Part shown: positions 864-28,179 of the stretch, one piece after another
How positions within the stretch are numbered: position 1 is the stretch's first letter
Layout: each line of letters begins with the position of its first letter
Notes under the pieces: model-generated
Told to the model about the DNA's origin: nothing
The model's input: only the letters and a program-made list of their open reading frames with translations
The model's database searches: none
Program-made: the position numbers and the translations under genes
Assembly (NCBI GenBank): GCA_026874595.1
Contig: CM049310.1
Span: forward strand, 54,501,058 to 54,565,057
DNA length: 64,000 nt
From: Sipunculus nudus
Taxonomy: Eukaryota > Annelida > Sipuncula > Golfingiida > Sipunculidae
Direction: 5' to 3'

Positions 864-903
<40 letters not shown>
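864..903. repeat. (CA)n-(TA)n microsatellite
   Basis: CA repeat (864-882) passing directly into a TA repeat (883-903). It abuts the left end of the candidate solo LTR, and TA repeat resumes at the LTR's right end, so the LTR appears to sit inside one older TA tract. Confidence 0.9.

Positions 904-1516: not shown

Positions 1517-1569
<53 letters not shown>
1517..1569. repeat. (TA)n microsatellite
   Basis: About 26 uninterrupted TA units directly following the LTR end. Confidence 0.95.

Positions 1570-1571
<2 letters not shown>

Positions 1572-2939: not shown

Positions 2940-2941
<2 letters not shown>
1570..2941. other. Intergenic, nothing recognised
   Basis: AT-rich sequence. Short ORFs here (for example 1926-2210) show no recognised domain and no splice-bounded coding pattern. 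Confidence 0.4.

Positions 2942-2993
<52 letters not shown>
2942..2993. repeat. (TA)n microsatellite
   Basis: About 26 TA units. It is read as an Ile-Tyr run in the overlapping minus-strand ORF, which is therefore spurious. Confidence 0.95.
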
Positions 2994-2996
<3 letters not shown>

Positions 2997-4038: not shown

Positions 4039-4045
4039 TATATAT

Positions 4046-4103
<58 letters not shown>
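4039..4103. repeat. (TA)n microsatellite, left of GC-rich island
   Basis: Imperfect then perfect TA repeat ending at the GC-rich segment 4104-4498. A second TA tract begins at 4499. Confidence 0.9.
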
Positions 4104-4108
<5 letters not shown>

Positions 4109-4498
4109 GCAGCCGAAGAAGTTTACTCTCGTCGAGCAGCTACAGGTTGCTGTGGTCAAGACCTCAGCCCTGTGCGCTCCTTAAACACGTTCTCTGAGCC
4201 AACAGACGCGATGCCACACCCAGCCAAGAGAGCAGCGAGAGGCCGCCGCCGTACATCGATCCGAGCCGGTGACCTTTTAGGAAGGCTACAGCACCCACAG
4301 CCGCAAAGGCAGAAGCAACCCACATTCCCTCCACCGTTCCCAGCAGCGGAGACCCAGCCATGCCATTCGAGAGCCGAACTCGATCATTGTGAACGACAGT
4401 GTTTCGAGACGCATCGCCTTTATACTTGCAGTTTCGGCCATTGGACCGTAAACCAGTTTCCCAGTTATGCAATCAAGTTTTTTCGTCATCGGCCATTT
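4104..4498 (-). other. GC-rich island between two TA tracts; possible insertion or pseudogene
   Basis: About 395 bp of much higher G+C than its flanks, boxed by TA repeats on both sides, as expected if something inserted into one TA tract. On the minus strand a short reading frame begins ATGGCCGATGACG near the right edge and stops after seven codons. A second frame then runs to about 4164, with a small-residue hydrophobic stretch (VASAFAAVGAVAFL, then MYGGGLSLLSWLGVASRL) that resembles a pair of membrane segments. I do not recognise the product. It could be a processed pseudogene with frameshifts, an exon, or part of a mobile element. No clear terminal repeats were seen. Confidence 0.35.

Positions 4499-4572
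<74 letters not shown>
4499..4572. repeat. (TA)n microsatellite, right of GC-rich island
   Basis: TA repeat with a few TG variants at its left end. Confidence 0.95.
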
Positions 4573-4574
<2 letters not shown>

Positions 4575-5827
4575 CATATAATTATATAACATGTATTTTT
4601 ATATATAAATATATATACATATATAAGTAACAAAGCATTATCTCATGTGCGTTATCAGTATATACCTATAGCGTCGAATATCGGAAGGCTAAAGATTGAA
4701 AGGTAATAACAGCTCTTTTATATAACCAGTAACCGAAAGAAAGACATAGCAATTAATATCAGACCTTGAATGTTATCGATACCAATGATGAACTGAAATT
4801 TTCGCTCGTTCGGTGTTCCCTTTGGTCGCGAAACAGAACCCTTGCGAAACACTGTAAAACATAATAAACGCGAATATTTATACGATTCGTCCCATCCAAT
4901 GACCATAAAGCATGTTTAAACTTTAAATCGGGTCGTCTGTGGTATAGCCTTTGTCACCCGGATGGACACTGGCGATTGAATGTCACTCGTTAAGGGGGAT
5001 TTATTTATGAATTTCAGTAAAGTATTTCCGTACTTTACCGCTAAATCTGTAGCAGCATGGCTAACTGAAATGCGGATGCAGACATAAACCGATCGACTGA
5101 GTGGATTTGAAGATCCACTGAGTCGCCTATTATGTTATGCGTATTGTGTGGCCGACCTATCTTCATATTATGTCAGTAGCCAATAGTTTGGGTGCATGGG
5201 TATCCTCTTGAGCCACTATGAGCCACTATGAGCAATTTTATTTTTTATCATTATAAACCAATGCTATAAAACTGTGAGTTGTGTTTCACCATCGCGAAGC
5301 CAAATTTAACTTCATGTGAGATAAAAGCTTATCACATTTTTTATTGTTTGCAAACTGTATACCAATAAAAACCCAGAACCATGAACATATCCTCTTAGTT
5401 AAAGCACAAGAATAAGAAAATTGTAAATTTGCATTACCTTACAATTGAACAAAAGGTTTCTGTACACCTGCCACATACCGTATGTGAAACATATATCCAT
5501 TTTGTTCTTAATCATATGTATTTGTTTTGTTTTAACCATAAAAACATTCAACAACCCCAAACGACTCCTCGTGCTGCATGAAATTGCTTATAAATATGGG
5601 GTCATTTACCTTTTTATAATATCAAGTTCAAAAGTTATGTGGATTCTGAATTTCAGTCAAAATCCAAGATGGCTGCCAATATGGCAGCCAAAGAACCCCA
5701 TGGGACATTATTTCGTAATGGGAACAAAATTCGTTAATGAATTTAATAATGTTGTTTAGAAAAAAATATTGGCGTATCATCTGGGTGCATAAGAGCCCTT
5801 ACAGAGAGTCTTCCGTCTAGGCTATAT
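4573..5827. other. Intergenic, nothing recognised
   Basis: AT-rich. A short inverted pair, CAAGATGGCTGCC / ATATGGCAGCC, lies near 5667-5692. No gene recognised. Confidence 0.4.
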
Positions 5828-6340
5828 CTATTGATGGAACAAAAGTAGAAATTGCACAAGAGTATAAATACTTAGAGGTAGTATTAGATGACAGGCTTGC
5901 ATGGGATAATAATGTAAATTTAGTATACCGTAAAGAGAAGCAGCGTTTATACTTTTTAAGGAAATCTGAAATCGTTTAATATGGAAAGCGAACTACTTGG
6001 TTCATTCTATTCTTCGATGGTCCAGAGTCTCATATCGTATGCTTTGATATGCTGGTGGGGAAATCTGACAATTAAGAACAAAAAAAATTGAACAGATAAG
6101 AAAAATAGCTGAAAAATTATTGGTCTTGATTTATATGACATAAATATTGTTTATGAAAATAAAGTTATGAATATGATGAAAATATTGTTGAAGGTAAAAG
6201 CCTGCTCATTGATTATATTGTCTGGCTAAAATCAGGCGACGGCTGAAGTCTCTGAAATGCAGAACAAACCGGTACTCCAGTTCGTTTGTATCGAAGGCGA
6301 TTAGATTGTTTAATGCATAGATAAATCAAAATATAATATT
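5828..6340 (+). pseudogene. Non-LTR retrotransposon (LINE) reverse-transcriptase relic
   Basis: The first frame (from about 5830) reads IDGTKVEIAQEYKYLEVVLD, then DRLAW, NLVYRKEKQRLYFLRK. After a frameshift near 5966 it continues SFNMESELLGSFYSSMVQSL and ISYALICWWGNLTIKNK. Further on (about 6228-6320) RRRLKSLKCRTNRYSSSF and AIRLFN can be read. This order (YLGxxLDDRLxW, QRLYFLRKLRSFNV, CWxGN, CRTNRYxxSFxPxAIRLxN) is the C-terminal part of LINE reverse transcriptases, probably of the Rex1/CR1/jockey side. The catalytic YADD region is absent (5'-truncated), and stops and frameshifts interrupt it. It is a dead fragment, typical of 5'-truncated LINE insertion. The family assignment is tentative. 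Confidence 0.75.
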
Positions 6341-8999
6341 ACTACTTATTTCTTTTTTTTTTCATTCTTACTCCTATTTTTGTACTGTGTCTTTGTTTTC
6401 ACTCAGCACTATATATGTCTTATATATGATATCACCCACGAAACAAATTCCTGTATTGTTATGGCATAAATCTTGTATCTTGTATTATTTGTACTGACTT
6501 TGGAACAAACCTGACACCTCCAGCTAAATAGAAGTGACGGAGGGGTTTCAATACAATCTTCTTGACTGAGTATACTTAAATAACTAAATCCATGCATGGA
6601 GACATTTCTTTACCTGAGGGGTTGTTACATGTAACTTGTGTCTTATCTCTTCATATCAATAACCTGAATTTTATGACTTATGGTTTATACAGAAGAGAAC
6701 ACTTTAGCGGTAAACGCCCTGACTCCGACCCCCGCAGGGAATGTCCATAAAGTGTGTATATATATATTTTTTTCTCTATAGTGTGGAAAGCTGACATGAA
6801 ATTCCTGCAGGCACTCTGGTATTTTTTTATTTGTTTATTTTTCTAGTCAAGTGTGTTATATAATAATATCATGAGATTTTGAATACGTTTGCTTGATCCT
6901 ATAGGTTGTTGTCTAAGATGTTCAAGATGTAAATTGTTTTAAGGAATCGCAGCTTTACCTCTATTTAATCAATGACATAGAGGTCATGAGAAATTAACCT
7001 CGGTGTGTCTGCACTAAATGACTGAGCAAAACCAGCTGTGTCACTGAAATTTACAAGGTACGATTTGTCAATTTCAGGTCCCTCGACACACCTGTATGCA
7101 CCCAGTGAACTGTAACGACGGTTATGTCTTCTATAATCTCTTATTTATGTGTGGACTTGAACTTTTTACTGAATTATAAGATAATTCTCTTCACCTTGGG
7201 CATATTTGGCTTGTATAGAGATTATTGTCCATGTATACTTTTTTTGGTCAGATTTTTTACAGAGATATACGTGGGACCAAATTGACCAAATGGGAAAAAA
7301 ACTTTTTGAGACTAAATTCTTAAGTTTATCCCCAGTTCCGGAAAAAAAGGGGAGTCGCAAAAATGGGTCTGAACTCCTTAAAAAAAGGTTGCAGCGGGGG
7401 AAAAGCGGGCCGCCGGACCTCCTGGACACCCCTCTGCATGCGCTTAGTTAAATATGTATGCATAAAGGTTACAATTTGATTTTCTTTAAGTAGGGCGCCT
7501 TCAATATAATAAAGGGTTTTAATGGTTTGGTTATACAAACTGAACACAGATGGAAATGTATACAAACTCCGAACAGCCCTTTTGTAGACCAGTTACAGGA
7601 AGGGGAGCTTACCTGGTGATGCTCGTGAAATGTCTTTTTTTTTTATCACTAAACTCCAGTGATGCATTACCCAAGTCTGTTATTATGTTAATGTATACAG
7701 TCTAGATTATTGTGAGAGTTCAGCCTGAACTTCCCCCCCCCCCCCCCCCCCCCCCCCCCCAAGGAAATCCCAGAAAGGCGCGATCCCTGAACGTGATTCA
7801 GATCTAATTTACACAACAGCAGAGGCAAATGTTTATTCTACAGATAAAGGAAATCATTGAATCCAGACAACCAAAGATCCATTAGCTAGTAAAACAAGTG
7901 ACGTCACAGAGTTACACAATTCTTTATTCATGGACTAACATGACCCACTATGAACATATAAAAAGGCATTTTGCGGCAAAAAAAAATTTTTTTTTTATTT
8001 TCCTCAAAATGGTGACACTTAATTTAAATACATTAGATTAAACTATAAACATATCGATCAGTGTCATATGGGATACAAGGAATGCATGGAAAATGCCACC
8101 TACATTAGCGAAAACAATATTATATATCATCCTGGTGGTCATATATTAACAAAAATAATAATAATGCTATGACAGTCCACCAGGTGGCGACAATGTGAAA
8201 TGTCCTCCTTGCCTGAGAGAAGAAATGTCAGGTGGAAATTATCTCATACATTTCAAATGTATTATGTATATCAAATTATATTTACGTGTAGGTTACAAGT
8301 GGAAGAGTCTTCTGTGTGGTTTCAAGAGAACAAACAAATAGTTAAGGTTGTGGGCAATGTTTTAATATCATACACCTGTTTAACTGCATTAAATATATGT
8401 TGGAATTGAGAGTACCTATGAGTTTTGGAAACAAATGCTTGAGAATGAGTCTTGAGTTTTTAGACGGCTGTATTTACTTTCTGACAGGTAATTGGACAAT
8501 ACCGAAAGAGCACATAACGCCGACAAGTCCATTGTTATTAAGCAAAAAAATAAAAGACTTTTGGATCACCACTAAAATATAATAAATTCCGTGCTTCATG
8601 AAGAGTCCCTATCTGATATTACCAGATCAGGCCACTAGGTGTCAGCAGCTCCTAATAGTATCAGTGCTGCGCCCAATAATTTATGTAAATATACAAACAG
8701 ACAATCAAATGAAATAATCCACAGCCTACAAACACTAATATTCAAGAAGATTTACTTATATTTATTCATAGCTTCTTGAGATACTTCGATATATTTATGG
8801 AAGAATAACAAAATAAAAATTCTTGTAGGCCTATTGAAGTGTTACTCCTACATTCACTTTAGACATTTGGCCTCAGTGTCATTAACTGCTGTCTCCCTGG
8901 CTAAATATTGACAGACCTAATTAGAAAGCCCTGTTCAAGGGCGTAAACAACAGTACAGAGTCCTAGTCAGATATATTATTCAAATACCCAACTGGTTTA
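6341..8999. other. Intergenic; poly-C tract, nothing else recognised
   Basis: The left end may include the LINE 3' tail. A pure C run lies at about 7733-7760. The overlapping ORFs at 7166-7565 run through low-complexity and G/C homopolymer sequence and are not convincing. Confidence 0.4.
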
Positions 9000-9310
9000 T
9001 ACTGTAGCTCAGTTGTGGTACAGGAAGGCCGCCAAATTCTGTGGCCCTCTGTTACTTAACACTCTGTACATTCAAACCCTGTTTCCGACATGGGCAGTCG
9101 ACTGGTAACCGGCTCGGCTTCTTCTGCCGGCGACCCGTGTTCGATGCTCGGCGTAGCCATGACAGTGAGTTGCAGTGGCCCCTGCAAGATCAGCGGTTTT
9201 CTCCGGGTTCTCAGGTTTCCTTCCACCCATGCAGGCTACCGTAGGCCACCATCTGAGCCAAACAGTGTGCCTCGATCAGTTGAAATAAATATTTATACAA
9301 TAAATAAAAT
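9000..9310 (+). mobile_element. Probable tRNA-derived SINE
   Basis: Near 9005-9015 the sequence TAGCTCAGTTG fits the Pol III A-box consensus. CCCGTGTTCGATGCTCGG (near 9137-9154) resembles a T-arm/B-box. Downstream is AGCGGTTTTCTCCGGGTTCT followed by CAGGTTTCCTTCCACCCATG, a CTCCGGGTxCTCxGGTTTCCTxCCAC-type block known as a conserved central domain of invertebrate SINEs. The element fades into an A/T-rich tail (AATAAATATTTATACAATAA). The A to B spacing (about 120 bp) is long for one tRNA head, so the true 5' end may be near 9088 instead. ORFs across it are not protein-like. Confidence 0.5.
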
Positions 9311-10444
9311 GTTTAATGTTTCCCTTGTTTTCAAAACTCCTGGAACAATTAACCACTAAATTCAACCGAGAAAATCATATCAAGTTTGATTGGTTTTCCA
9401 CTTATTTACTTATTTCCATTGAAACCTCTAGATGGCGCTACCGCGCTGTACTATTTATAGCATTTTAACATAATTTTCTGTCTGATTCACCGTTCCTCTC
9501 ATACCCGCTCTAAATTGACAAAACAAGTGTCATGAAATAGCTAATAATATGCATTACTGTATATCATAAGTGACCTGTAGCTTTCAGCATTAGTTTAGCG
9601 AGTCTTGAATCGGGGGATGGTATTACAATTAACTCTCCTGTCAAAACATGTACATATGTACTCTCAGTGTAAAACTTAACACCCACGAAACTTCGTTCGT
9701 TTCAGATTATGTACATTTAAAGTGATCCCTGACATGGTATAGATTTTTTTTCTATTTTATCACAATATAAAACATACTCAAAGATTTATAAATTATATAC
9801 ACAGGAATGGGCCACATAAACCATTAAAACCATCAAATTGTTTAATGTAGAAGTTGTCAAAATCTTTAGATAAACGAATTATGCGGGTAACTTAGGCTTC
9901 CCAAATATGAGTAGCAATTATTTGAATGTTTCTTTTGGTGAACACATGTGTATACCCGTGTTTATGTCAAACGGTTATTTATCCCACATAACCGGTTGGT
10001 CAGGTAAATGCATTTTTGGGTGTATTTCCTGCCACAATTGGACCACAGGTATGTTTACTCATATACATGCGGGCACACCCAAACACACACACTAATCAAA
10101 CACAGTATTGTTCTATATACGGACAAAAATATGGGGTGAGCAGGCGATTTATTTTTCTTCTTTAACGGTCGTGACACAGTATTAGAATTTAGCAATCTTG
10201 CCAAGAAAATAAAACAGAAAGTGCTCCAAATATTGAAATGGTGTGAATATGATCAACAGAATACTTAGCCAGTTTTTCATATCTCTAATAATTCCTCTCA
10301 CGTATTTGTGCCATAGCACAAATTAGCAGCATTGGCTGGTTGGCTGTTTACTTTAATGTGTATAGATCTATATATATGGATGGGTGTCTGATTGGATAGT
10401 TGAAATGAGAGGACGTTACATCAATCAATTTTCGCATATAACGA
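9311..10444. other. Intergenic, nothing recognised
   Basis: No gene or repeat boundary recognised. Confidence 0.4.
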
Positions 10445-11322
10445 AAGTAGTAGTAGTAAAAGTAGAAGTAGTAGTAGTAATAGTAGTAGCAGTAGTAGTA
10501 TTAGTAGTAGTAGTAGTAGTAGTAGCAGCAGCAGCATCAGTCGCAGCAGTAGTAGTATTAGTAGTGGTAGTAGCAGTAGTAGTAGTTGTTGTTGTAGTAG
10601 AAGTATTTGAAGTAATAGTAGAAATAGCAGTAGTAGTTGAAGAAGCAGTAGTAGAGGTAATAGTAGTTGAAGTAGTAGTAGTGGTAGTAGGTGAAGTAGT
10701 AGTAGCAGTAGTAGTAGTAGTGGAAGTAGTAGTAGTAGTAGTAGTAGTGGTAGTAGTAGTAGTAGTAGTAATAGTAGTTGTAGTAGTTGTTGGCGAAGTA
10801 GTTGAAGTAGTAGAAGTAGTAATAGATGTAGTTTCAGTAGAAGTAGTTGAAGTAGTAGTAGTTGTAGTTGTAGTAGTAGTAGTAGAAGTAGTTGAAGTAG
10901 TAGGAATAGATGTAGTAGTAGTAGTAGAAGTATTAGTAGTAGTAGAAGTAATAGAAGTAGTTGTAAGTAGTAGTAGTCGTTGAAGTAGTAATAGAAGTAA
11001 TAGAAGTAGTAAATATAGAAGAAGTAGTAGTAGTAGTAGTAGTAATAGTAGTAGTAGTAGAAGTAGTAGTAGTAGTAGTTGTTGTTGTTGTTGTTGTAGT
11101 AGTAGTAGTAGTAGTAGTAGTAATAATAGTTGAAGTAGTAGAATGGTTGTAGTTGTAGTAGTAGTAATAGAAGTACCAGTGGTAATAGAAGAAGTAGTAG
11201 AATAGTAATAGACGTATTAGAAGTAATAATGATAAAAGAAGTAGTAGTGTTAGTTGTTGTTGTTGAAGTAGTAGTTCTACTGCTTCTAGTAATGCTATCA
11301 TCATTAGCAGCAGCAGTAGTAG
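10445..11322. repeat. Long imperfect AGT/GTA trinucleotide array
   Basis: About 880 bp of AGT units with interspersed AGA, AGC, TGT and ATT variants. Long open frames on both strands (poly-Val on +, poly-Thr on -) are products of the repeat. Interruptions are spread throughout, so this is an old array rather than a fresh expansion. Confidence 0.95.
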
Positions 11323-11681
11323 TTTGCCTTTTTCCTGCTGTTTTATTCAGTCTGATATATATTCACTTTCTATCGCTTTTCCAAGCTTTTATAAGCCAAA
11401 CGAAAACGTCTGTAATTTAATACAATAACAAAGAATTCATTCTGGTGATTTATTTTATGAACATAAAAAACTACATGATACAATTGACCGTTGTGAATAT
11501 ATTTCTAAATATTCAATATTCATCATCCCACTCGATATTTATCTAAAAGAACTATATTTGCCATCACCGATGCTATAAATTGATGAACTTGTATGCCCTC
11601 TCAGCATCCTGCATGGGGGGGGGGGCACAAAGTGCTTCATAGAGTAGATCACTGAAGTCGGAGAAAACATCACACCATTGA

Positions 11682-12323
11682 CAGTGGCGGATCTAGAACA
11701 AACTGTTAGGCGGGGGGGGGGGGGGGGGCGACGACTCAGATTCTAGATAGCATGTTGGTCGAGGGGCGTAGCACCTGAGGGGGGTAGGGTGTGGGAAGAA
11801 GATATAATGATTAAGAAATCAAATTTGAGCATTTTCGTGAACTTAAACCAGATATTTTTGTTTCTGATAAATTGGATACAAGGCAAAAGTTTTAGAATAT
11901 AGGCCTAAATCACTTCTGTTTCTCCTATTGAGGGTGTGGGAGGGGTGTCCCCCTCGCATGCACGGTGAGGAATTTTTTTTGAAGATATGATGATTAAGAA
12001 ATCAAATTAAAGCATTTTCAGCCACATAAACCAGACATTTTTGTTTCTGATAAATTGGATACAATGCAAAAGTTTAAGAATATAGGACTAAATCACTTCT
12101 GTATGTCTTATTGAGGGTGTGGGAGGGGGTGTCCCCTCAAATGCACGGTCAGGAAATTTTTTTGAAGATATGATGATTAAGAAATCAAATTTGAGCATTT
12201 TCGCGCACTTAAACCAGACATTTTTGTTTCTGATTAACTGGATACAAAGCAAATGTTTTAGAATATAGGACTTTGTCCTATATCGCCCCCTGTGCCCCCC
12301 CCCCCCCCCCGGATCCGCCACTG
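11682..12323. mobile_element. hAT-like MITE with 183-bp internal tandem repeats
   Basis: Begins CAGTGGCGGATCTAG and ends GGATCCGCCACTG, giving terminal inverted repeats. The 5-bp sequence ATTGA lies directly outside both ends (11677-11681 and 12324-12328). Between the ends are about 2.7 tandem copies of a 183-bp unit (the motif GAAGATATGATGATTAAGAA recurs at about 11798, 11981 and 12164) containing GAGGGTGTGGGAGGGGTGTC. Long G/C homopolymers lie just inside each end. CAGTGGCGG termini are common in hAT-type MITEs, but hAT elements usually make 8-bp duplications, so the 5-bp one is atypical. There is no transposase ORF. Confidence 0.8.
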
Positions 12324-14403
12324 ATTGAGGGCTGGGTCTTCAGCTCGTGATACTGCTGACATAGGAAGTCCGGCCTAAGACAGCCAGTATTAAATTAGCC
12401 GTCAGCATTAATCCATCAGTGGCGTGACCTCGCGGGGACAAGGCTGGGGGGGGGGGGGGGGGGGTCCGTCAATGACGTGTACCTCAACAATAGGCAATCA
12501 CGGACCCCCGGCCTGGTCCGCCCAGCCTAATGGATGTCACGCCCCGTGCGGTGACTTAATTATTGATGTAGCAAAAACGGTCACATCGCATGTGACCTGG
12601 ACAACTGGAGATTTCCTGAACAATATGACAGTAGGGGCAATGACGTTTGATAATGCCTGGACACCTGATCATAACATAGCGATCGTTTTTGACAATGGCG
12701 GAAACAGGCTTTTAGAGAAGGGGGCGGGGGTTCAACACCCTGGTACAGCCAAACTAGCGTGCGTCAATGCTAGTAGAACAGGATACGGTCGTGCTCTTCT
12801 TTTGGTGTATAAGCGTACATAATTATAATTCCTAGATTTTGTTTTTCGTAAAAGAAGGTAAAGACGCCCCTTGCGCCACCCCTACCCCTAAGTCCGCCCC
12901 TAGGTGAGGTATGTATAGTTGTGTGCAAGCTTTTGGACAGCGTCATCTATCAATAATCAGCATGGTTAATTGATGGTTGAAGTAATATAACTTATAGCCT
13001 TTTTTTCACCAACGATCCATAAGAATTATTATTTAAACAAAAACCATTTTCTTTTATAAGGAATTAATAAATGCATAATATATATGTCTTATCTGTCTGA
13101 TTAATATTCCTTAAATCTTGTTCCCACGACAAATCATAACGGGAAGGGCAGGGGTAGTTCAAGCTGCTCGTAATCTCAGAGTTGTACAGGTCAATGGAGA
13201 TGAATTAAACTAACATTACTTGAACCTGTTAAGCAGAATAAATACCTAGCTGCAAGAAACTGAAACTGTAGAAATAGTTGTAATACACATATAAATTATG
13301 ATGCATTCGAAAAGATGGAGACTGCCATGGGTTTTGTTGAGAATAAATAGAACAGATGAAACAATCGATAAGATTGAATCGAGGTAATATTGGTAGTGTC
13401 CGGTAGATGCCGCTCACATCAAGACAGGATGGCGACGAATCGCAGTGTGTCCTCAAAACACCAGCACACTGGGTATCAACGAAATAATTCCATTCTGAAA
13501 ATACACTGGTCACCCGAAAATACTTCCACAAATAGTCCTGATTCAGCTGTTATAAGAAATTATTTAGAGGTGGCTTTCCTTTGATCTGATAAATATAACA
13601 GTCAAGCAAGGGTTAGATTTTAATTCATATCGTCCTTAATTACACTCATGTGTTTAAAAGTTCCATGCCTTCTCAAATCAATAAGAAGAAACATTGCTGC
13701 CAGCGTTCTCTATCTAAAGACCACAGGCCCAATATAAAGTGTTCTAGATCAGCTTCAGAGTGTGATGGCGGATACTGATCTTGCATATATTCCAGATCCC
13801 GATTTATAGCTGGTATAGTTTTGTTTAAACTGGTCTAGACCATGCCCTAGTCATAATTTAGTATCTAGGTATTTATAAAACTTTTCAAAAATGTTTTTAG
13901 TCATCATGTGTTTTTTCTGAACAAATATTACATGTTTTATTTATATTTTTAATAGCATATTTTGGTTATATTAAACTGGTCACGCAGCAAAACAGATTAG
14001 AAAATTGTATGTTGGTTGTGTGTTTACTCTTTAACGAGAACACTAAAGCCTGAGAATGTTAAACACAACAGAAAGAAAAGCAAACAAGGTCTAATTAGCT
14101 CTCAGGCCTGACAAAACACTCTTTTTTTTTTAAAGAATCACTCTTTGTTGATTTCCTGAAAATGACGTCAATTACTCTTTCTTTACTCATTTTTTTTTCA
14201 GGAGCGCCTTTTTTTGCTCTGTTTTTCAGTAAAAGAATCCCGATATATACTCTTTCTCTTCTGTTTTATCAGTCTAGTTAGAATACAAACGGGACATTTC
14301 GCAATTTTTATGTGTGTTAATGTTCAGCATGTGTCTCAACATGCGGAAATTACCTTGTCTACATGTCCGGGGAATGTGAACAATGTTTGTTTCTGACTTT
14401 AGG

Positions 14404-14404
<1 letters not shown>
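12324..14404. other. Intergenic; possible second CAGTGGCG element
   Basis: CAGTGGCGTGACCTCGC at about 12417 resembles a hAT-type end. AAGTCCGCCCCTAG near 12890-12903 could be a decayed opposite end, but no target duplication is visible. The 132-codon ORF at 12424-12822 lies within this segment and is not recognised. The rest shows nothing. Confidence 0.3.

Positions 14405-14452
<48 letters not shown>
14405..14452. repeat. (TA)n microsatellite
   Basis: About 24 TA units. Confidence 0.95.
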
Positions 14453-14455
<3 letters not shown>

Positions 14456-14672
14456 TTGAAGCATGTCAGTCACATTTTCATTCAGTCTGTGATAAATAAT
14501 TGGGAAATTTGCGCTAATTTTACTTTGTTTTCAATCTTTATTATAAATTGGTCTACTCTTTTATTTAGCACTTTCTTTTTTTTTCGTTTATTTACCTTTA
14601 AAGCTTTGGAAGGCCTGAGCTGTGCCGTAGAAGTCTTTTGCCTTGCTTCCGCTATAGCACTCTCGGACAGTA

Positions 14673-14931
14673 TGGTTCTCAGGCACTTTTTTTTAATCAG
14701 TGCGGACGAGCGATTTTTTTTTCTGTATGTTTCGATAAAAATGTCATATATGATCAGAGAAAAGCATGATTATAACGGATTTTTTTTTTTGCTAAACAGG
14801 TAAAAGCACCTGTCCACATAACAAAGAAAATATTATCAACATTGTATTATTTTATCTTCTTGATAGATGAAAATCAAAATAAAAATGATTGATGCGGGTG
14901 GGGGGTTTAAATCGCCGTTGCCTGAGAACCG
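14673..14931 (-). mobile_element. MITE, TGGTTCTCAGGCA family, copy 1
   Basis: 259 bp bounded by TGGTTCTCAGGCA and its inverse TGCCTGAGAACCG, with TA at both flanks (14671-14672, 14932-14933), as in Tc1/mariner-type elements. The interior, read on the minus strand, matches the copy at 31391-31682: ACCCGCATCAAT next to one end, then TCAAGAAGATAAAAT, then TGTTTAGCAAAA/TATTTAGCAAAA. Two independent copies confirm a family. No coding capacity. Confidence 0.75.
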
Positions 14932-16491
14932 TACCTATTTTTGGCTTGACTGAAAATAAGACAAATATTGGCATAGATAGTTCCTAATTATTTTGGCCTT
15001 TGCAAGTTTCTAGTCAACATAACGGGAACCTTTAAAAACATGTTATTCCCCAGTGTTCTCGTTCACATGGAAATCATTTACGTGGCAGTAATGCCAAGTT
15101 AGGCTTGTAACAAAGGTCACACAATATTCCAAATATTCAAAGTTTATAAACCCATACCGACAGGAAGTAATCTAAATGAAACTTACACTAAGCCGGTTTC
15201 TGCGCTCGTTCCAGGTTGGTGTATTGACGGGTTCTCTGAAAATTAGTCTCTGAACTAGCTCTTCACATAAGGCCTTTTAATGTTCTCGGTATATTTTGTA
15301 TATACCACATGGATTACGTGTTACAAAAGTTCCACGTTGTTCTCTGCTGTCTGAGGTTTCTCACAATGCCGCGGATAGCCGCTGTTTACGCCTGTTGGAT
15401 ACATGTCAGATTTGACTAATAAACCATACCAAAATAAAACATATATGCATGTGATGACATTTTTTTCATCGGCCCCTGATTTCGGGCTACAAGAAAACGC
15501 CTAGGAAGTGCCCTTTTCTGTTCTTGATGTGTCAGGAACAATGTCTAGTGGGACCGTTTTCCATAGTTTCTCATCCTGAGAAATGTGACACAATTTCGCG
15601 AATGGGCTATCGCAGCGCCATCTATTGGAAACTATTTTAACTCACTCCAACGCAAGAACGGACAATATGCTAGTTTTCTTAATAAATATTTACAACCCTT
15701 GTTGATAGAAAATAATTTATTTATATAATTTTCTTTGTATTATTTCCTAGCTGTTGTTGCTGTTTGACTTTCCCATCCACACACACCCTGCGGGCACTGT
15801 ATATTGATGAGGCTGCTGACTTGCACCGAGACGAGTGCAGGTTTACTGAGCCACTGAGCTAGCAGAATGGGCTGAATCAATAATGATGCCACGATTCTCA
15901 ACAGGGAATGCATGATAAAATACCATAGAGGCCCAGTCGGTTTGACTGAAAAACAGAGAAAACTATAATAAAGTTATATCTGTACATTAGAAAATAGCGT
16001 TAGACGGAAAGTTCACTCGATTCTACGTGTCAGTTATATTATTTCTGAAGCACCAATATGGCTACCAGTCGAAATATATACGCCGGATGGCTGACATAAG
16101 GATAGGCGACATCCCGATTGGTGACATCCCTAATGGGAGACAGCCCGGATGTGAGACACTCCATCTAATGTATATTTACCATTTAACGCCTGCTATGCCA
16201 CAACACGGATGTTTTGTTGGCACAGGATTGTCGTTCAGTTTTTACTCTGGCTCTGGCAGTCTAGACTTTATATTACCGTCATATTCACTTTATATAAGTA
16301 CATTCCCCATAATCATTTATCAAGTGAACTAGGCCAAAATACTGGTGTTACACATGGTTGCATTTAAGAAGAAAATCAGGTCGGTTTCCTGTACAGTTTT
16401 TCATTTGATCTTTAATTTACGAATATGAACTGGTTACGGAGGAGCCCAATCCAGGGATGTCAAAAGAAAGATAGATTGAAATTGGCATATA
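14932..16491. other. Intergenic, nothing firmly recognised
   Basis: On the minus strand TAGCTCAGTGG near 15855-15865 is a perfect Pol III A-box, but no B-box or tRNA fold follows. No gene recognised. Confidence 0.35.
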
Positions 16492-17177
16492 TATTACGAA
16501 GACAAATAAATGAGGGGAAAATCCTGGGCCGATCCGGGTGTCGAACCCAGGATGTATAAGTCCGGCGTACCAACCGCTTCGCTAGAAAAGCCAGCTTCAC
16601 TAGCGGATCAGTTCGGTCCGCTTTTATGTCACCCAGTAACACACCCCCTCTTAAGAGCGTTCTGCTATCAGAACTAGACTAATTATCCCAGGAGTCACAC
16701 TTAAGTGAGCTTATTCCCTGGGCCACAAAGTTAACCGTCACGTTAGACGAGCCCCCATTTTGTTACGAAGGCAAATTGTTGAGGGGGAAAAATACTGGGC
16801 CGATTCCGGTTTCGAACCCAGGTCGGTGGCGCACAAGGCCGGCCAACCAACCGCTTCGCTAGCAAAGTTCGGACAGTTTGGTCCGCTTTTATGTCATCCC
16901 GTAACACACCCCCTCTTAAGAGCGTTCTGCTATCAGAACAATACCAATAATCCCAGGAGTCACACTTTGGTGAACTTCTTCCGTGGGGCACAAAGTTAAC
17001 TGTCACGTTAGACGAGCCCCCATTTTGTTACGAAGACAAATTGTTCAGGGGAAAACATTGGGCCGATCCCGGTTTCGAACCCATGTTGGTGGCGGACACG
17101 TCCGGCGTACCAACCGCTTCGCTAGAAAAGCAGGCTTCAGTAGCGACACAGTTCAGTCCGCTTTTATGTCACCCCGT

Positions 17178-17181
<4 letters not shown>
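16492..17181 (-). mobile_element. TRIM element, tandem LTR-int-LTR-int-LTR array (locus A)
   Basis: A 690-bp, non-coding, minus-strand element with three LTRs (17026-17181, 16761-16906 and 16492-16641, each 146-156 bp) and two internal regions of exactly 119 bp (16907-17025, 16642-16760). Read on the minus strand, each LTR starts TGTTACGGGGTGACATAAAA (or a variant) and ends CGTAACA (decayed to CGTAATA at the far end). Each internal region starts AAATGGGGGCTCGTC, whose TGGGGGCTCGTC matches the 3' end of tRNA-Pro (primer-binding site), and ends CTTAAGAGGGGGTG, a purine tract touching the next LTR. ATATA flanks both outer ends (16487-16491, 17182-17186), though in TA-rich DNA. The size, with LTR, PBS and PPT but no genes, is that of a terminal-repeat retrotransposon in miniature. 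Each LTR carries tRNA-like A/B boxes. Confidence 0.85.

Positions 17182-17236
<55 letters not shown>
17182..17236. repeat. (TA)n microsatellite
   Basis: About 27 TA units directly abutting the TRIM's 5' LTR. Confidence 0.95.
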
Positions 17237-17239
<3 letters not shown>

Positions 17240-19140
17240 TAACTGTTAATACATTATAAAACTAGTTTGTATAAGCATAACATATACTTCGTCTAAATCA
17301 GTTGGTCCATTTTGGAGTCGTCAAATATGGTGCTGCCGGTTGGTCTGTCGTGAAATCGTCCATTTGGGATTCGAACTTAATTTTCAACTGTAGAGAGTAG
17401 AACGGACCTCTAGCGTTCATGCATGGTTCAGTGTTTATAATTCAATGGTTTTCATATTCGCTTGTCATCTTCTTACTTAAATGCATATTATAGTGTAAAA
17501 TTAGATGATAATGAAGGATAATGATGGGTCTAAATAAAATAGAAAATGCTTCGGTTTTTCTTTAATTTGTTGTTTACATAGTTGTGCGTATATACCGTAA
17601 CATTCCGTTTACCAAAGATAAGATTCATTTCATGAAAAATTTATAAAGTATCGATGAATGTGTAAATAAGTACATGTACTTGTGTAATCTAGATTAATAA
17701 CTGACTAATGTTATCCATGGAGCGTTTCCCTCATTTTAGGTCTATATATATGGCGTGTTATAATTAAGACATAAATGTGAATAGACTCGGTAGAGATAAA
17801 TGTATATATATACTGCTCAATGGAATGAAATGCAAATTAATTATATTATAGTATATTTAGTATATTATAGTATATTATATTAAATATTATTTTTTATAAT
17901 ATTATGCTATATTTTATTATATATATTATTCTATATTATAGTATATTATATTATAAAATTATATCATATTATATTATAATTTTCATATTTCCAACAGACC
18001 TCTTCATATGACGAGTATCTCTATACAGATAATAAACTGATATGACAACTATCCATACTGTTTTGCAACCACGCCAATGGTTTAGTCAAGTCCATTGCAT
18101 AAGAGTCCAAGTGTAAGTCCTAGTCCTTCAGGTTCTAGACCAGTGAAGTCCACCTTCTTCCGTTAGGGTTTACTGTCATCCCATAAACCCTTTCCTCTAA
18201 AAAACTTTAATAAACCCTTTGTTTAAACAATGTGGGTCATTTTGAACTCCAGTCTACACCCGGGTCCAATATTAATCTTCTTATTAAAATGGATTTCAAA
18301 TGGACCTCTAGTCCAAGTCCGAGTCAGTTAAAACTGCCAAATTCTGGAATTCATTATTTCCTGCATCACTTACCCATGCAACAGTTTATTCAAACTCTTA
18401 TCGATGTCCGTTGTCTGGAAGTAAATGTTATTTTAACCGGTATGATGCCGGTCAGCCAGGCGAGGCAATAAAAATGTCTATGTTTTACGTGACCATTATA
18501 TATAACATCATGAGGACACAGACTGGAATACTTAACAAATTTGGACGTCTGGGTTAGGCGGACAAGGTGTTATATGTCTCTAATTATTGTTTAACGCCTG
18601 GACGCTTTGAGGTAAAAGGGATGTACTCATTGGTCAGTCGGTCATTATTAATACCCACGACTCTCGTGATGAAAAAGCCATATTAAAGGCGGGGTGTCTA
18701 GGCGTACCCACTGGGATCCATGCTGTCTGGGTAAAAACGTGGCCCGTCTGTATGGTCATAATTGGCCGAAGAAAGCTTTACCGGATTATCCATGCAATAT
18801 TAGCCTAAGGCCCGGTACAGTGTTACTGTACAAGCCTAAATCTGCTTTGCCTAGGCAGCTCCATATATACAGCTTTGCCAGCTTTCCTTTTTATTTTTAT
18901 TTTTATAACATGCACGCAGACACGGTTTCACTGTCTGATTCACATTACAAATTGACGTCACTGGCAAAATACCAGAAAGCTGATTTACGGGAGCGTGTGC
19001 TTTGCAGTGCATGTATATTTAATAAATATTGTAAACTATGACAACACAAGAATAACTGGCAAGCGATGCATTATTAACAAAAGGATATCATGAAATTGAT
19101 AATAGAAAAGGATATTTATTTAAATATGAAAACTATAATT

Positions 19141-19143
<3 letters not shown>
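17237..19143. other. Intergenic; AT-rich patch, nothing else recognised
   Basis: About 17835-17985 consists of degenerate TATATTATAG-type repeats. Short GTCCAAGTCC-like repeats are scattered between 18090 and 18330. The ORF at 18694-19041 is not recognised. Confidence 0.4.

Positions 19144-19191
<48 letters not shown>
19144..19191. repeat. (TA)n microsatellite
   Basis: About 23 TA units, followed directly by TTAGTGGTGTGTCGAC and an ATTGATTAAATCGAT-rich segment (19205-19290) of short inverted repeats that may be one end of an unrecognised MITE. Confidence 0.9.
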
Positions 19192-19194
<3 letters not shown>

Positions 19195-20039
19195 TGGTGT
19201 GTCGACTAATTGATTAAATCGATGATTGATCGTTTTCTTTCAAAATCGATTAAATCGATCTTAGTTTTGCATAATTGATTAAAAACGATTATGTAGTCAC
19301 ATGCATTCACAGAATCTCATTCTGTCAGAGATTCACGAACACAAAGTTAAGAAATAACATCAATATTAATAAGAAAAAAAAATGACCCTTGCCTCCATCT
19401 TTATTATTAAATATAAATTATTATTTGCACTTATCTTACTTTAAAACAAGGACCATGAAAAAGAAAAGGACAAAAAATTCTAAAGCAATAGTACTCATAG
19501 CAAAATACATGTAAATAAGTTAATAAATAAATAAATATATAAATAAATAAATAGATAAATAATAATAATGATAATAATTCATAATTATAAAAATTATCAT
19601 AATAATAATCATAATCGTCATCATCAGTAGCATCTGTATTTTTTATTTAATGCATCAAAGGCTATATACCCTTACAGGAAGCAACAGACAGCAGATGGCC
19701 TACGTCCAACAAATGGGGCGCATCCCATTCACTTTGGCGCGAAACGCGAGCCATTGCTTCCATGTTTGTAGTTTTGGCACCATGCATGCACGTGCAGTTC
19801 AAACAACGCACAATGAGCCTGGCATTGGATCTGCCTCGGGAATAAGTCGTGTTGTTTGTGCGTAATTTCACAGTTAAAATGACATCAATATTAAAACGGT
19901 TTGTTATTTTTAGACAAACGTCTTGCTGTGTTTCTTAGAAGTCTCTTGTGAGAATTCAGAAAGGAAAACAGTTCGATAAGAATTACCTAACAAAGAGCTT
20001 TTGAAAAAAATTAGTGTTGTAGTAACAAGATTCCCCGCC
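19192..20039. other. Upstream region, nothing firmly recognised
   Basis: ATTGATTAAATCGAT-type inverted repeats (19205-19290), then an AAATAAAT/AATAATAAT low-complexity patch (about 19515-19615). The sequence becomes less AT-rich from about 19650. No upstream non-coding exon could be proven. Confidence 0.4.
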
Positions 20040-23575: not shown

Positions 23576-25293
23576 CTTTGTGGTTTTATCATAACCAAAC
23601 ATTCTGGGGGCCAATAGATTGCAGAGTATTAGAATAAGCCTTGAATTCTGACATCATATAAATTCACAGTACACATACCAATATTTTCAGTATATGTAAC
23701 CAAAGTTGATGTCACATCTGCTCTTCTAGTATTATTCAATCAACCATGTTTTATTTGTCCAAATTAAACATTTACATAAAGTCACTGAAGACTCTCTCAG
23801 TTATTGTGCAGGGGTAGAGTTTCTTGAGAATCATTTCGTGTGAATTTTCTGCTGGCGTGAATCTAACTGAATTATATGCCTTGTACATATCTAGGATCCA
23901 TGATAAGTACTCCGCATAAAAAAACTTCAACAAACGCAAGAACTTTACACCCTTGCCCGGAAAATAATCGTGTAAAATCAAGTATTGCATTTTTGACAGG
24001 GAAACTTATGCACTAATCTTAAGGCAGAAATCATAATTAATTTCAAATGGCCAAGAAATTTAGCTGCATATTGTGTTAAATTATGAAAACAATGCCTCAC
24101 TTTTTAAAACTTTGCAACCCCAGCTTTTGAAACTGAGAAACAGAAACAATGACATGCGTGATCTTTGCTCGCAGAGCCACACAGCTGACGGTTGGTACAT
24201 TATAACAAATAGCCAGGCGACTCCGGCCCACCGTGGCTGAAGGGATCCCAGAGCAGACATCATTCGCTGCTTATCATCACTTATTATAAGGCCAATATTT
24301 TTCTAATCAACTTTTGAAGTAGAAAACACTGTTGAAGTGCTTTGTTATATACACATTATAAATAATTTTTATTTCATGCTAAATACATCAACGGTGAGAG
24401 ATAATAGAGGTTATTACTGCTTTACCAGCAATCTATTGACAATACTAATTGTTCACAAACATTGACCGCTTTGATATGGCTCATTTAATATACATGACAT
24501 ATTAACTTCATTAAGAATAAGTTTCAGTATGATAGTCACTCAACTTGTAACATTAAACATGCTTTTATTAAGACTTTTTTAAAGAAATTCAAAATCAATA
24601 ACTTATTTCTTTAAAATGTATGTCACAGTGTTAGTCCTTTTAATATTGCAGTGCAGGAATGATAAAACAATGTTTGAAAAACAGATGAAACCCCAGTATA
24701 TTTTATATGATTTATAACACTCAACCAAGTAAAGATTTGATTTTCAGAACAAATTAATTTTTTTTTAAATCTAAAAATGTGTTTGGCATCTCGAAAACAA
24801 GTTAACAGCTTAGTCTGTCAAGTATGTAGTGCCTAATAAGGACCTGTCAACTGGCAGCATGACCCCATGTGTTGCCTGTCTCCTGGTCATTTTGATTCTG
24901 TGATTCCTGTAAATCTGTTTTGTGGGAATCACTTATGATTCTTCTTAAACCCTGCAAAATTCTAACCCAGTTGTGTCAATAGTCTGCATATATTGGCAAC
25001 ACCTATGGTGATGGGATAATTATTATCAATCAGACCACAGATTTAATGTGCACTCAGACAATAGGAGTTGATGTAAATTTTTATTCGCAATTTTTATTGC
25101 AAATGTGCAATGGGGATCAGAAAAAACTGTGTCACCTTTTATTAAATCTTCTCCTCAATACATAAATCCTAAAAATGATGCTTGATTGAACACTGGTAGT
25201 TTGGTATATATAAACTACAACAGCATTTATAATGATCCCCAAAATGTTATACCAAATCAGGCCCCTCATAAGATGCATGTCAGCTGTTACAGA

Positions 25294-25720
25294 TGTTACA
25301 GGGTGCATATAAAAGCGGACCAAAATGTCTCGCTAGTGAAGCTTGCTTTGCTAGCTAAGCGGTTGGTTCGCCGGACTTGTGCACCACCGACCTGGGTTTG
25401 ACTCAAGGATCGGCCCAGGATTTTCCCCTCATATATTTGTCTTCATAACAAAATGGGGGCTTGTCCGACGTGACGATAAAACTTTGTGGCCCAGGGAATA
25501 AGCTCACCAAAGTGTGACTCCTGGGAAAAATTAGTCTTGTTCTGATAGCAGAACGCTCTTAAGAGGGGGTGTGTAACAGGGTGCACATAAAAGCAGACCG
25601 AACTGTCTCACTAGTGAAGTTTGCTTTGCTAGCGAAGCGGTTGGACTTGTGCACCACCGACCTTGGTTCGACTCCCGGATCGGCCAAGGATTTTCCCCTC
25701 ATTTATTTGTCTTCGTAACA
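25294..25720 (+). mobile_element. TRIM element, complete two-LTR copy (locus B)
   Basis: 427 bp: 5' LTR 25294-25450 (TGTTACAGGGTGCATATAAA...CATAACA), internal 25451-25571 (121 bp), 3' LTR 25572-25720 (TGTAACAGGGTGCACATAAA...CGTAACA). CAGA at 25290-25293 and 25721-25724 is a candidate 4-bp target duplication in non-repetitive DNA, so this copy defines the element limits best. The primer-binding site TGGGGGCTTGTCCG (25454-25467) differs by one base from the tRNA-Pro complement. The polypurine tract is CTTAAGAGGGGGTG (25558-25571). The 5' LTR has a TATA box (TATAAAAG). The 3' LTR has an exact A-box TAGCGAAGCGG (25630-25640) and B-box GGTTCGACTCC (25665-25675). Confidence 0.88.
25630..25675 (+). 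promoter_or_regulatory. tRNA-like A-box/B-box inside TRIM LTR
   Basis: TAGCGAAGCGG fits the A-box consensus TRGYNNARNGG and GGTTCGACTCC fits the B-box GGTTCGANTCC exactly. They lie in tRNA order, with 24 bp between the boxes in this copy and more in others. Related LTRs at 16492 and 61687 also keep a T-arm-like hairpin. Pol III transcription is inferred, not shown. Confidence 0.65.
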
Positions 25721-28179
25721 CAGAGAAAATCAGGTATTGATGTATAAGTAAGAGTATTTTACTAACAAATTGAGTAACAATTAAAAAATAATGTCAGCGA
25801 TGCTGTCCTGAACTGTTGCTTTAAGAAATGCATGACCCTGCACAAAACATTTTTCTTAACAAAACATACTGTAGCAAGGTTGGGAAGGCATAGGGTGTGG
25901 GGCTATAAAAAATACCCACTTACAATATATGAGTAGGGACAGACTGACATTTGATACCTGCTCAAGATGGGGAAATGTAATGGTTGGTATATCATCAGAT
26001 TTGCACCTCCAGTGATAGAGAGCCTGAAATGACTAATGACTGATGTCAGAGTGGCTGTTGAATTTGTTGAGAATTTCCATGAAAACCTGGTAAAGAAAAC
26101 TTTTCATTATTTTTCATGTTTAAAACTTTCAGATAAACCAACCCATTCAGTCAATAGATGTTGCCTTATTTTCAATCAAGAAGCTACTTTGTATTATAAA
26201 AAAATCTTAATATTTCATTACTTTTGGTTTTGGTAATTTACTATTAATTTCATGACTGTTAATCTGCTGGCCATTGTGTCTCCCATAGTTTTCATGAAAT
26301 TATTGGATTACTAGCGGAGATTAACCACCAGACTTAATGCAAAGTATAATTAGCAAGTACTTGATGTATAGCTATTTAAAGTGAACCCTCAGGGTCCACA
26401 TCTTTCTAGCTAAGCTTAGCCATCAGGGCTATAAGCACAGTACTTACTATTAACAGGACCTGTTACATTACAGATAAACCAGACTTGATGTTCAGTAATA
26501 TTTTACAGCTCTGGAGTACAAGTTAAGATTTATTAAATATCAGACCCATAACCTACAGTAATATTGACAGGTATCACATTCCTTAGCCCTGCCAGGGCTT
26601 TAGTATTTGCGTTTACTAATAAAATGCTTACAATAAAACGTGATTCAATGTACCGAAAGACTTAACACAGTGCCAGCTCTTATCACTAAAGCCCTGTAAT
26701 GTCCGTAGGGTGAATCGCTGATATTTGCATATCAAGGCGTCACAAGGCTCTTTGAGAACCTGACGATTCCCCCGTATTTGCATATCAGGCCGTCACACCT
26801 CATGTGAGTGGCATCGTTGCTATGAGAACGCCAACAGCGGTCCCACAGCTCGACCCGTTTGGTAACATTCGCAGGTAGTTCACACATGAATCTTCGTGTT
26901 CTATGATATATCTCTGCTGAACGAATATTACGGGCCATGGGCCAAATGTAAGTGAATATTGTAGACACTATCGCAACAATTTTGTACCGACAGGTCCAGT
27001 AAAATTCCTTATGCCGAGATGACAAGAGCAGCTGGCAGCATTTGTCTGAACCCGTGTATTAACTGTCAAATTGCGATTTGCGAATCGTGATCGTTTCAGT
27101 CAGCGGGTACATTTTGACTGCGCTGATTCTCGCGCTGATTGGCTGAGCCAGAGTTTGGCCTACATTATATTTAAACAGGCCAACTTTCAAGACTGCTGGG
27201 CCGATAAACGTTAACACTGAGGCTGAGGGTCATAGTGTTTTATAAAGTCTCGCCGAACTCAATTTAAGCGACGGCATAAAATTATTAAGACAAATTAAGT
27301 GGGAATATTTGTAACCAATTGGAAGCCCGGAATAGGCGATTACTGAATGAACCATATTGGTTTTGAAAAAGATTCTGGGAAAGACCACTGCTGACGTCAC
27401 TGGAAAAGACCTTAGTTCAGCGAGGCGGTGATTTGTGGCGCTGACCGTCCGGGAACCGGCCAAGATTACCAGTCCATGAAATCAGAGGGTCAGATAGTGG
27501 CAAATTAGTTATATGAGTTCCCGCAAGATGCGACACAACGCATGAACGTTTGATTTCTCTGTCAGAAGCAACAATTAAGTCAGAACTATTTCATGGACTG
27601 GGCCAGTCTACACATTCCTTCAAATAATTAGTTGTGGGAAGTAGATGGCGATACATGATGTGGTTCAAATGAAATGAAAGATCTAAAATAGATAAGGGAT
27701 AATGTGGAGGATATTTTGGTTTCATTGGTAATTCATATCTGTTAATATGATGAGGAAATGTGAGCCTGCAAATTTTGATATTTAGAAAATTAAAAAAAAA
27801 AATAAAGTAATTTTGGTTTCCAATGTAGAAATGGATAAAAAGGTTTTACTTACCTGTTCAGGTTTATGTGAACAATAATTTTAAGATTTCCAGCAAATTC
27901 TCTCTACATGCTCTACATTTATTCATGTACATTACAGACAATATCTCATCCAGCTTTTGTACTTATCTGTACCAAATTTTCAACACTTCTTACTGAGGAG
28001 GTTTGCTTGATTTTACTAGGAAACTTTGAAACATAAAAAAAAAATTATTCTGCAGTATGCTGGACCTGATAGAATCTAACTAAATGAGAAGTTCCCTGTA
28101 TCAGTTTTGAGTGTGCTTTAGTGAGCCTGTGAACGTTAAAGGGATAAAACACTGATACAGCCAACTATGAGAAGAAATA

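Follow-up and report, generated by a model that had tools for sequence, protein, structure and literature searches.

Kojima (2024) gave the name Helenus to TRIMs whose LTRs resemble tRNAs; some bivalve families among them have a tRNA-Pro PBS, and Pteriomorphia is the sole group of bivalves listed (PMC10886601). In the passages of that paper drawn on here, these animal elements combine a tRNA-like LTR containing A and B boxes with a PBS, a PPT and 4-bp target duplications; tRNA-Pro is among the bivalve primers, one zebrafish family forms tandem arrays, and a functional tRNA is considered unlikely for most families (PMC10886601). The same passages do not validate Pol III transcription of Helenus, state that the tRNA-like part and the PBS lack complementarity, and deduce Gypsy as the animal partner from the resemblance of the PBSs (PMC10886601). 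No LTR T-run, chimeras, fold-backs or tRNA tails were found in them, and the sole passage on a terminator concerns Cassandra (PMC10886601). A search of one literature collection found no primary paper on Helenus besides Kojima 2024.

Cassandra of plants is similar in its LTR-internal Pol III promoter and terminator, its transcript running from the 5' to the 3' LTR and its tandem arrays (PMC10886601, PMC7215508); in the present element the arrays are seen, and the promoter, terminator and transcript are predicted from sequence. It differs in carrying 5S rRNA instead of tRNA and in its plant hosts, and the passages used indicate no partner for it (PMC10886601). Ajax of nemerteans is likewise a TRIM with a Pol III-type LTR promoter, but it is derived from 5S rRNA and makes 5-bp duplications (PMC10886601). 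The bivalve biv-TRIM shares the tandem arrays and occurs as solo repeats, whereas its repeats of 202-218 bp, its internal part of 77-80 bp and the lack of a canonical PBS set it apart (PMC6934838).

The element described here agrees with Helenus in being a short LTR element with boxes in its LTRs, a PBS and PPT, and 4-bp duplications, the comparison being with the published description of Helenus; its box A (TAGCG..CGG) is one base off TRGCY. For a 5S rRNA in the LTR, the feature of Cassandra and Ajax, no Rfam hit reached the gathering score, either in the window (the whole 64-kb stretch analysed) or in 20 loci, a level below which a partial, Ajax-like 5S could score. Membership in biv-TRIM is rejected on repeat length and on the conserved word TGATCCCAAAGGAC, which is missing from the element and has a single match with two mismatches in the window (39831, outside the element). 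LTRs, PBS and PPT are all present, unlike in a tRNA SINE. The first-pass annotation of this locus had drawn a parallel with Cassandra, which is apt but not new, as TRIMs with tRNA-like LTRs have been in print since 2024 (PMC10886601). Its central observation is right, and the kind of element is already published as Helenus. What goes further here is a set of fossils showing the primer tRNA and a probable helper, a Gypsy element with the same ends, and the Pol III type-2 layout.

Results

Three copies in the window

One repeat family occupies three loci in the window, with the following parts.

16492-17181, minus strand: locus A, LTR-internal-LTR-internal-LTR
17026-17181, minus strand: locus A first LTR, 156 bp
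17114-17124, minus strand: A box TAGCGAAGCGG, locus A first LTR
17071-17081, minus strand: B box GGTTCGAAACC, locus A first LTR, 43 nt from the A-box start
17052-17055, minus strand: T4 run 3' of the B box, locus A first LTR, resembling a Pol III terminator
16907-17025, minus strand: locus A first internal region, 119 bp
17011-17022, minus strand: PBS TGGGGGCTCGTC, locus A first internal region, complement of the tRNA-Pro 3' end (host tRNA-Pro genes)
16761-16906, minus strand: locus A middle LTR, 146 bp
16851-16861, minus strand: A box, locus A middle LTR
16808-16818, minus strand: B box, locus A middle LTR
16642-16760, minus strand: locus A second internal region, 119 bp
16746-16757, minus strand: PBS, locus A second internal region
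16492-16641, minus strand: locus A last LTR, ending GTAATA inside a TA repeat
16574-16584, minus strand: A box, locus A last LTR, where a deletion leaves the B box just 37 nt on
25294-25720, plus strand: locus B, LTR-internal-LTR
25294-25450, plus strand: locus B first LTR, 157 bp
25451-25571, plus strand: locus B internal region, 121 bp, PBS at 25454-25465 with one mismatch
25572-25720, plus strand: locus B second LTR, 149 bp
25290-25293, unstranded: CAGA, left copy of the 4-bp target duplication of locus B
25721-25724, unstranded: CAGA, right copy of the 4-bp target duplication of locus B
61411-61831, minus strand: locus C, LTR-internal-LTR
61687-61831, minus strand: locus C first LTR, 145 bp
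61567-61686, minus strand: locus C internal region, 120 bp, PBS at 61672-61683 with one mismatch
61411-61566, minus strand: locus C second LTR, 156 bp
61403-61410, minus strand: AAATGGGG, 3' of the locus C 3' LTR, matching the start of an internal region

The direct LTRs at the three loci measure 145-157 bp, and the internal regions (119 and 119 bp at locus A, 121 bp at B, 120 bp at C) agree with the four regions of 119-121 bp first reported. The tRNA-Pro-type PBS stands 3 nt inside the LTR end, with a purine tract ahead of the following LTR, as had been claimed, with the single PBS mismatches at loci B and C noted above. The ends TGTTAC...GTAACA hold as the general pattern and not, as had been stated, for every unit: besides the third LTR of locus A, which terminates GTAATA, the first LTR of locus B terminates ATAACA and the second opens TGTAAC, and the first LTR of locus C opens TGATAC and terminates ATAACA, all single-letter exceptions. 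The A-box word TAGCGAAGCGG, allowing up to two mismatches, occurs at 11 places in the window, and the PBS word at five, four of them in the element; neither count was reached in any of 100 shuffles. Pfam matched none of six window ORFs at E 0.1.

Within the window, a clean target duplication is seen at locus B alone (CAGA, 4 bp), and none was found at locus C. The AAATGGGG beside locus C may be the start of a further internal region, belonging to a cut tandem, or the end of a strong-stop DNA. Next to this locus, at 61320-61402, lie short repeated and inverted words around TCTAGGCGAG. Locus A sits in a long TA repeat (17182-17237), like several genome copies, and AT-rich sites may be preferred targets. 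A possible hairpin, TTCTGATAGCAGAA, is contained in one of the locus A internal regions, which folds at -34.9 kcal/mol, a value without shuffle control; a packaging signal in such a hairpin is conceivable.

Genome copies and target duplications

The window lies on contig C5 of the host assembly (1.4265 Gb, 153 contigs). When one unit served as the DNA query, 2706 first-look candidates came back, 40 of which were scored and yielded 98 matches. Thirty loci were taken; L014 and L017 were dropped as repeats of arrays already included and 12 were added, which with loci B and C makes 42 stretches. Exact LTR-end/PBS junctions GTAACANNNTGGGGGCTCGTC number 906 genome-wide (449 + 457), against none for the reversed-pattern control. 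One exact DNA pattern found no copy in a viral contig collection.

Target duplications were scored on 44 LTR-bounded groups, of which nine were dropped and 35 have both termini recognisable, these being 34 multi-unit elements and a single LTR. Identical 4-bp flanks border 23 of the 34 multi-unit elements, against 0.076 in the mismatched-pair control, and outside TA repeats the duplications are found in 15/25 against 0.010. Exact flank matches of 3 bp and of 5 bp occur once each among the 34, and those of 6 bp four times, every one in TA repeats. The duplications of 4-5 bp expected by the first-pass annotation are thus 4 bp long, and the 5-bp part of that expectation falls away. Simple LTR-internal-LTR elements make up 21 of the 34 and tandem ones 13; units that are always tandem and never LTR-flanked, named beforehand as the refuting case, are not what the genome holds. 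With both ends, the simple elements span 399-433 bp, which fits a short (<1000 bp) non-coding element, coding being judged by length. The reading as a TRIM is borne out by ends at TGTTAC/GTAACA, 4-bp duplications and LTR-flanked single elements.

The assembly gave some observations of its own. Contigs C1-C17 are of chromosome size (61-111 Mb, ~1.40 Gb together), and the host karyotype is probably n = 17. A search with PF00115 turned up no animal COX1 contig; a short COX1-like piece lies on C5. Molluscan haemocyanin (PF14830) was not detected, in a search whose control was uninformative. Bacterial contigs with cox1 genes are present (C60, C61, C62, C89 and others), C61, C62, C72 and C89 measuring 2.0-3.3 Mb. 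The four translated cox1 of C60, C61, C62 and C89 are near-identical mutually, with at most 58% identity to the best 80 GTDB matches listed, and these contigs are perhaps several strains of a deep-branching associated bacterium. C123 (112 kb) has bacterial oxidase genes in 1-20000 (L047, L048) and a GC of 53% over its first 20 kb; it looks, by eye, like a second, gammaproteobacterial associate.

The LTR as a predicted Pol III unit

LTR statistics were taken from 81 LTR matches, 73 of them full length; the copies are related, and the box and T-run counts are not independent. The TATA-like ATAAAAG is found in 60/73, the A box TRGCNNAGYGG in 51/73 and the B box GGTTCGANNCC in 45/73. The first-pass annotation was right that both boxes are present, whereas its B-box word GGTTCGANTCC is found in 31/73 and fits less well than GGTTCGANNCC. 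Both boxes are recognised in 33 LTRs, 29 of which have a start-to-start spacing of 43 nt. GGTTCGA is retained in 51 of the 73, and a T4-6 run begins 19-20 nt after it in 46 of these, the other five being without such a run. No T4 stands between the boxes in the 38 LTRs with both, or in any of 46 internal regions, and AATAAA occurs in 1/73. As read from these motifs, the TATA-like site is followed by the A box, the B box and then the terminator-like run, the order of a tRNA gene (Pol III type 2), and we infer that the boxes may drive Pol III transcription. The T-run would also halt Pol III in the 5' LTR, so that leakiness must be assumed, and the TATA-like ATAAAAG, which could serve Pol II, counts against the Pol III reading.

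The tRNA and covariance searches proposed earlier detected no tRNA: ARAGORN found none in the window or in 28 loci, no Rfam hit in the window or in 20 loci reached the gathering score, and a listing for locus A that extends to E 10 is free of tRNAs. On these negatives the idea of a true tRNA in the LTR is rejected; the promoter boxes are kept, and a tRNA fold is not detected. Conservation within the family does not establish the boxes as a working promoter. Taken jointly, the TATA-like site, A box, B box and T-run have a non-CpG mismatch of 0.055 against 0.066 for the rest of the LTR, a value equally low in 1375/5000 permutations, and the B box by itself varies more (0.104).

Probable primer tRNA-Pro and a Gypsy element with the same ends

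Forty-five of the 46 internal regions open with AAA, and the exact 12-nt PBS is present in 29. Two tRNA-Pro genes were found in the host genome (AGG in L167, CGG in L180), and their 3' ends are complementary to the PBS. Compared with a tRNA-Pro complement, the 46 regions match at 11-14 of 18 nt, the first 12 being the conserved ones. A full 18-nt PBS followed by a normal internal region was seen at 3/26 junctions taken in listing order and at L155.

The candidate partner is known from one nearly complete, frame-broken copy, L153 (C1:30041000-30050000), whose direct repeats (113-873 and 6087-6855) are 94.6% identical. Its second repeat starts TGTTAC, preceded by GGAGGGGGAG, and its first TTTTAC; the LTR end CCGTAACA is followed by the spacer TAT and the Pro-type PBS TGGGGGCTCGTCCGGAAT. 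Judged by these sequences, L153 and the TRIM family agree in their LTR ends and PBS and resemble each other in the PPT. The L153 LTRs contain TATA words and an AATAAA-type signal, and the A- and B-box words used here are absent from them; no clear target duplication was read. Separate open frames match, in order, SCAN, the integrase zinc finger and core, the integrase C-terminal domain, RVT_1 and RNase H. An integrase upstream of RT is the Gmr1 gene order. L153, with its SCAN-like gag and integrase ahead of RT, resembles Gmr1-type Gypsy elements, a class assigned here by domain content and order. Among frog LTR elements, SCAN is found in Gmr elements only, according to the passages used of PMC4131045. 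It is probably a Gmr1-type Gypsy element of this kind that moves the TRIM; the Helenus passages above reach the animal partner by PBS likeness, and here chimeras provide the link.

tRNA tails and Gypsy-Helenus chimeras

The pattern GGTTCRANTCCCGGACGAGCCCC for the tRNA-Pro 3' end occurs at 35 places in the genome, each of which was read. They comprise the two tRNA-Pro genes, L168 on its own (a tRNA-like tail among Gypsy-LTR-like pieces), four tRNA tails (L160, L172, L177, L189), four chimeras in which a Gypsy-type LTR is joined to an inverted Helenus LTR (L164, L165, L182, L184) and 24 fold-backs.

In the tRNA tails, the complement of tRNA-Pro continues after the LTR end and PBS, of a Helenus LTR in L160 and L172 and of a Gypsy-type LTR in L177 and L189. 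Measured from the mature 3' end by hand count on the alignment, with two bases of CCA added, they reach 38 nt in L160, 57 in L172, 39 in L177, 40 in L189 and 39 in L168, with 0, 3, 0, 1 and 2 mismatches, respectively. Most end near tRNA nucleotide 37, a stop just before which corresponds to 39 nt (and one before 58 to 18 nt); the tail of L172 extends past it. Plus-strand synthesis halts ahead of m1A58, with a minor product at the modified position 37 in tRNA-Lys, and m1G37 occurs in tRNAs for C-starting codons except CAN, according to the passages used of PMC13191261. The tailed element L160 has no flanking duplication.

Chimera L184 consists of a Gypsy LTR (positions 1-759 of 761), the junction and an inverted Helenus LTR, and is bordered at each end by GTAT. 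For L164 and L182 the match covers just the 3' portion of the Gypsy LTR and no duplication is readable, and L165 is tangled. L172 is a reverse chimera, in which a Helenus LTR and 57 nt of tRNA-Pro lead into the 3' portion of a Gypsy LTR, with the Gypsy internal region behind it. The tails support priming by tRNA-Pro, and the chimeras support co-packaging: Gypsy and Helenus DNA would have met in reverse transcription, most simply in one particle.

Fold-backs as candidate strong-stop fossils

In the 24 fold-backs, a Helenus LTR end and PBS are joined to an inverted Helenus LTR starting near the B box. The inverted LTR is matched from position 115 in 23 of them (L163 is gapped there), and the arm extends back to LTR position 1 in 17, with L187 in two pieces and the rest shorter. 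Three (L157, L176, L179) copy nearby ones. Both outer ends are readable in eight, and the 4-bp flanks are identical in seven of these (6/7 without the copy L157), against 0/54 mismatched pairs; the miss is L174 (TGAA/TAAA). The other 16 have at least one unreadable outer end and stand outside this count. An extra inverted LTR lies left of a truncated direct LTR in L166, L171, L175, L176, L178 and L179.

The fold-back probe was built on the junction itself, and other breakpoints are under-counted. Taken in listing order (entries 21-46), 26 junctions lead to a normal internal region in 23 cases, to one fold-back (L158), to the Gypsy element L153 and to one deletion, L207, where the PBS and CCGGGAT run into position 72 of the internal region, a place that itself reads CCTGGGAT. 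The CGGGAT at fold-back junctions need not be a tRNA copy, because genomic 18-nt PBSs exist (the 3/26 above). The products themselves are seen; from them we infer a mechanism in which the fold-backs would be fossils of a plus-strand strong-stop intermediate. A limited and weak literature search found no title concerning strong-stop fossils of this kind.

Divergence and tandem arrays

The two LTRs of 26 single elements differ by 8.0% on average (2.9-14.1%), and LTRs of different loci by 10.6%; since the loci are the best matches to a window unit, 8.0% is not a genome-wide age. Outer LTRs are closer mutually than to inner ones in just 4/15 tandem arrays (means 0.108 and 0.094). In array L009 the internal regions are near-identical (0-0.8%) and the outer LTRs 12% apart. 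Identical 4-bp flanks enclose the whole array in 9/13 scored tandem elements (control 0.141), several of them in TA repeats.

Discussion

Two alternatives concern what the element is. If the repeat were a SINE or satellite of tRNA origin, with tandem units that merely resemble LTRs, this would account for A and B boxes such as SINEs have and for the 13 tandem elements, locus A among them. This alternative is refuted by the 4-bp duplications at the LTR ends (23/34) together with the LTR structure, that is, the 21 single LTR-internal-LTR elements with TGTTAC/GTAACA ends and the PBS and purine tract at fixed places, and we give it almost no weight. An ordinary Pol II TRIM, in which the tRNA boxes are the functionless relic of a SINE once inserted in the LTR, draws support from ATAAAAG in most LTRs and from boxes whose conservation does not exceed that of the remaining LTR, and for the B box falls below it; the tRNA-gene spacing of the boxes, a T-run at the position of a tRNA-gene terminator, the absence of T4 within the transcribed part and the near-absence of AATAAA speak against it and make it rather unlikely. 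We consider the element very probably a Helenus-type TRIM of ~430 bp with a Pol III-type LTR promoter, moving by the cycle proposed below.

Two further alternatives concern how the joined and tandem structures arose. Genomic inversion, nested insertion or gene conversion, unrelated to reverse transcription, might have produced fold-backs and chimeras, for the fold-back junction has the 8-nt word TCCGGGAT in common with the LTR, breakpoints other than that of the junction-built probe were sought in the 26 listing-order junctions only, and two thirds of the fold-backs lack at least one readable outer end. Such rearrangement would nevertheless have to explain single 4-bp duplications around the whole fold-back in 7/8 and around the whole chimera L184, inverted arms that hit LTR position 1, the start of plus-strand DNA, in 17/24, and 38-40 nt of tRNA-Pro sequence after some LTR ends, and we judge it improbable next to a strong-stop origin. 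Tandem arrays, for their part, could stem from reverse transcription of read-through dimer RNAs. Leaky terminators would produce such RNAs, tandem Cassandra RNAs are reported (PMC7215508), and whole arrays within identical flanks fit, though these are expected of either route. This origin predicts like outer and unlike inner LTRs, but outer pairs are closer in only 4/15 arrays; it is not supported and we hold it doubtful. The outer-LTR result and the L009 pattern instead point to unequal exchange following insertion, by which the tandem units most likely arose.

The proposed cycle of this Helenus element would begin in the 5' LTR, with Pol III initiating a short way ahead of the A box, sometimes passing the T4-6 run there and terminating at the matching run in the 3' LTR; given a leaky first run, the RNA would start and finish with R. 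It may be packaged by proteins of Gmr1-type Gypsy elements, in line with the chimeras, and tRNA-Pro would prime minus-strand DNA at the 12-nt PBS, as the tRNA tails suggest. The purine tract, from its place in the structure, is the putative primer of plus-strand DNA, and integration would yield the 4-bp target duplications that are observed. On occasion, plus-strand strong-stop DNA, its 3' end copied from tRNA-Pro, might mis-prime at the B-box word, complementary to that end, in the plus strand of a Helenus LTR. Synthesis from there would continue as far as the LTR start, the point of origin of plus-strand DNA, and the resulting U3-to-U3 fold-back, both of whose ends are U3 ends and suitable for integrase, could then be integrated.

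We lean slightly towards a broader reading, in which the genome would be a fossil record of one retrotransposition reaction: strong-stop DNAs of helper and Helenus, ended at the modified tRNA-Pro nucleotides 58 and 37, would have primed on the B box in shared particles, the fold-backs would form a distinct insertion class, and the tRNA-like LTR would trap the tRNA-derived ends of the helper's and its own strong-stop DNA.

The autonomous helper of a TRIM is often not known, and chimeric insertions with a target duplication are a sequence-based route to it, just as tRNA tails reveal the primer, and perhaps modified blocks too, without experiment. The proposed cycle further explains, in a form open to test, how genome-length RNA can come from a Pol III unit whose LTR contains a terminator. 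If the same is true in other Helenus genomes, helper and primer would be readable from assemblies.
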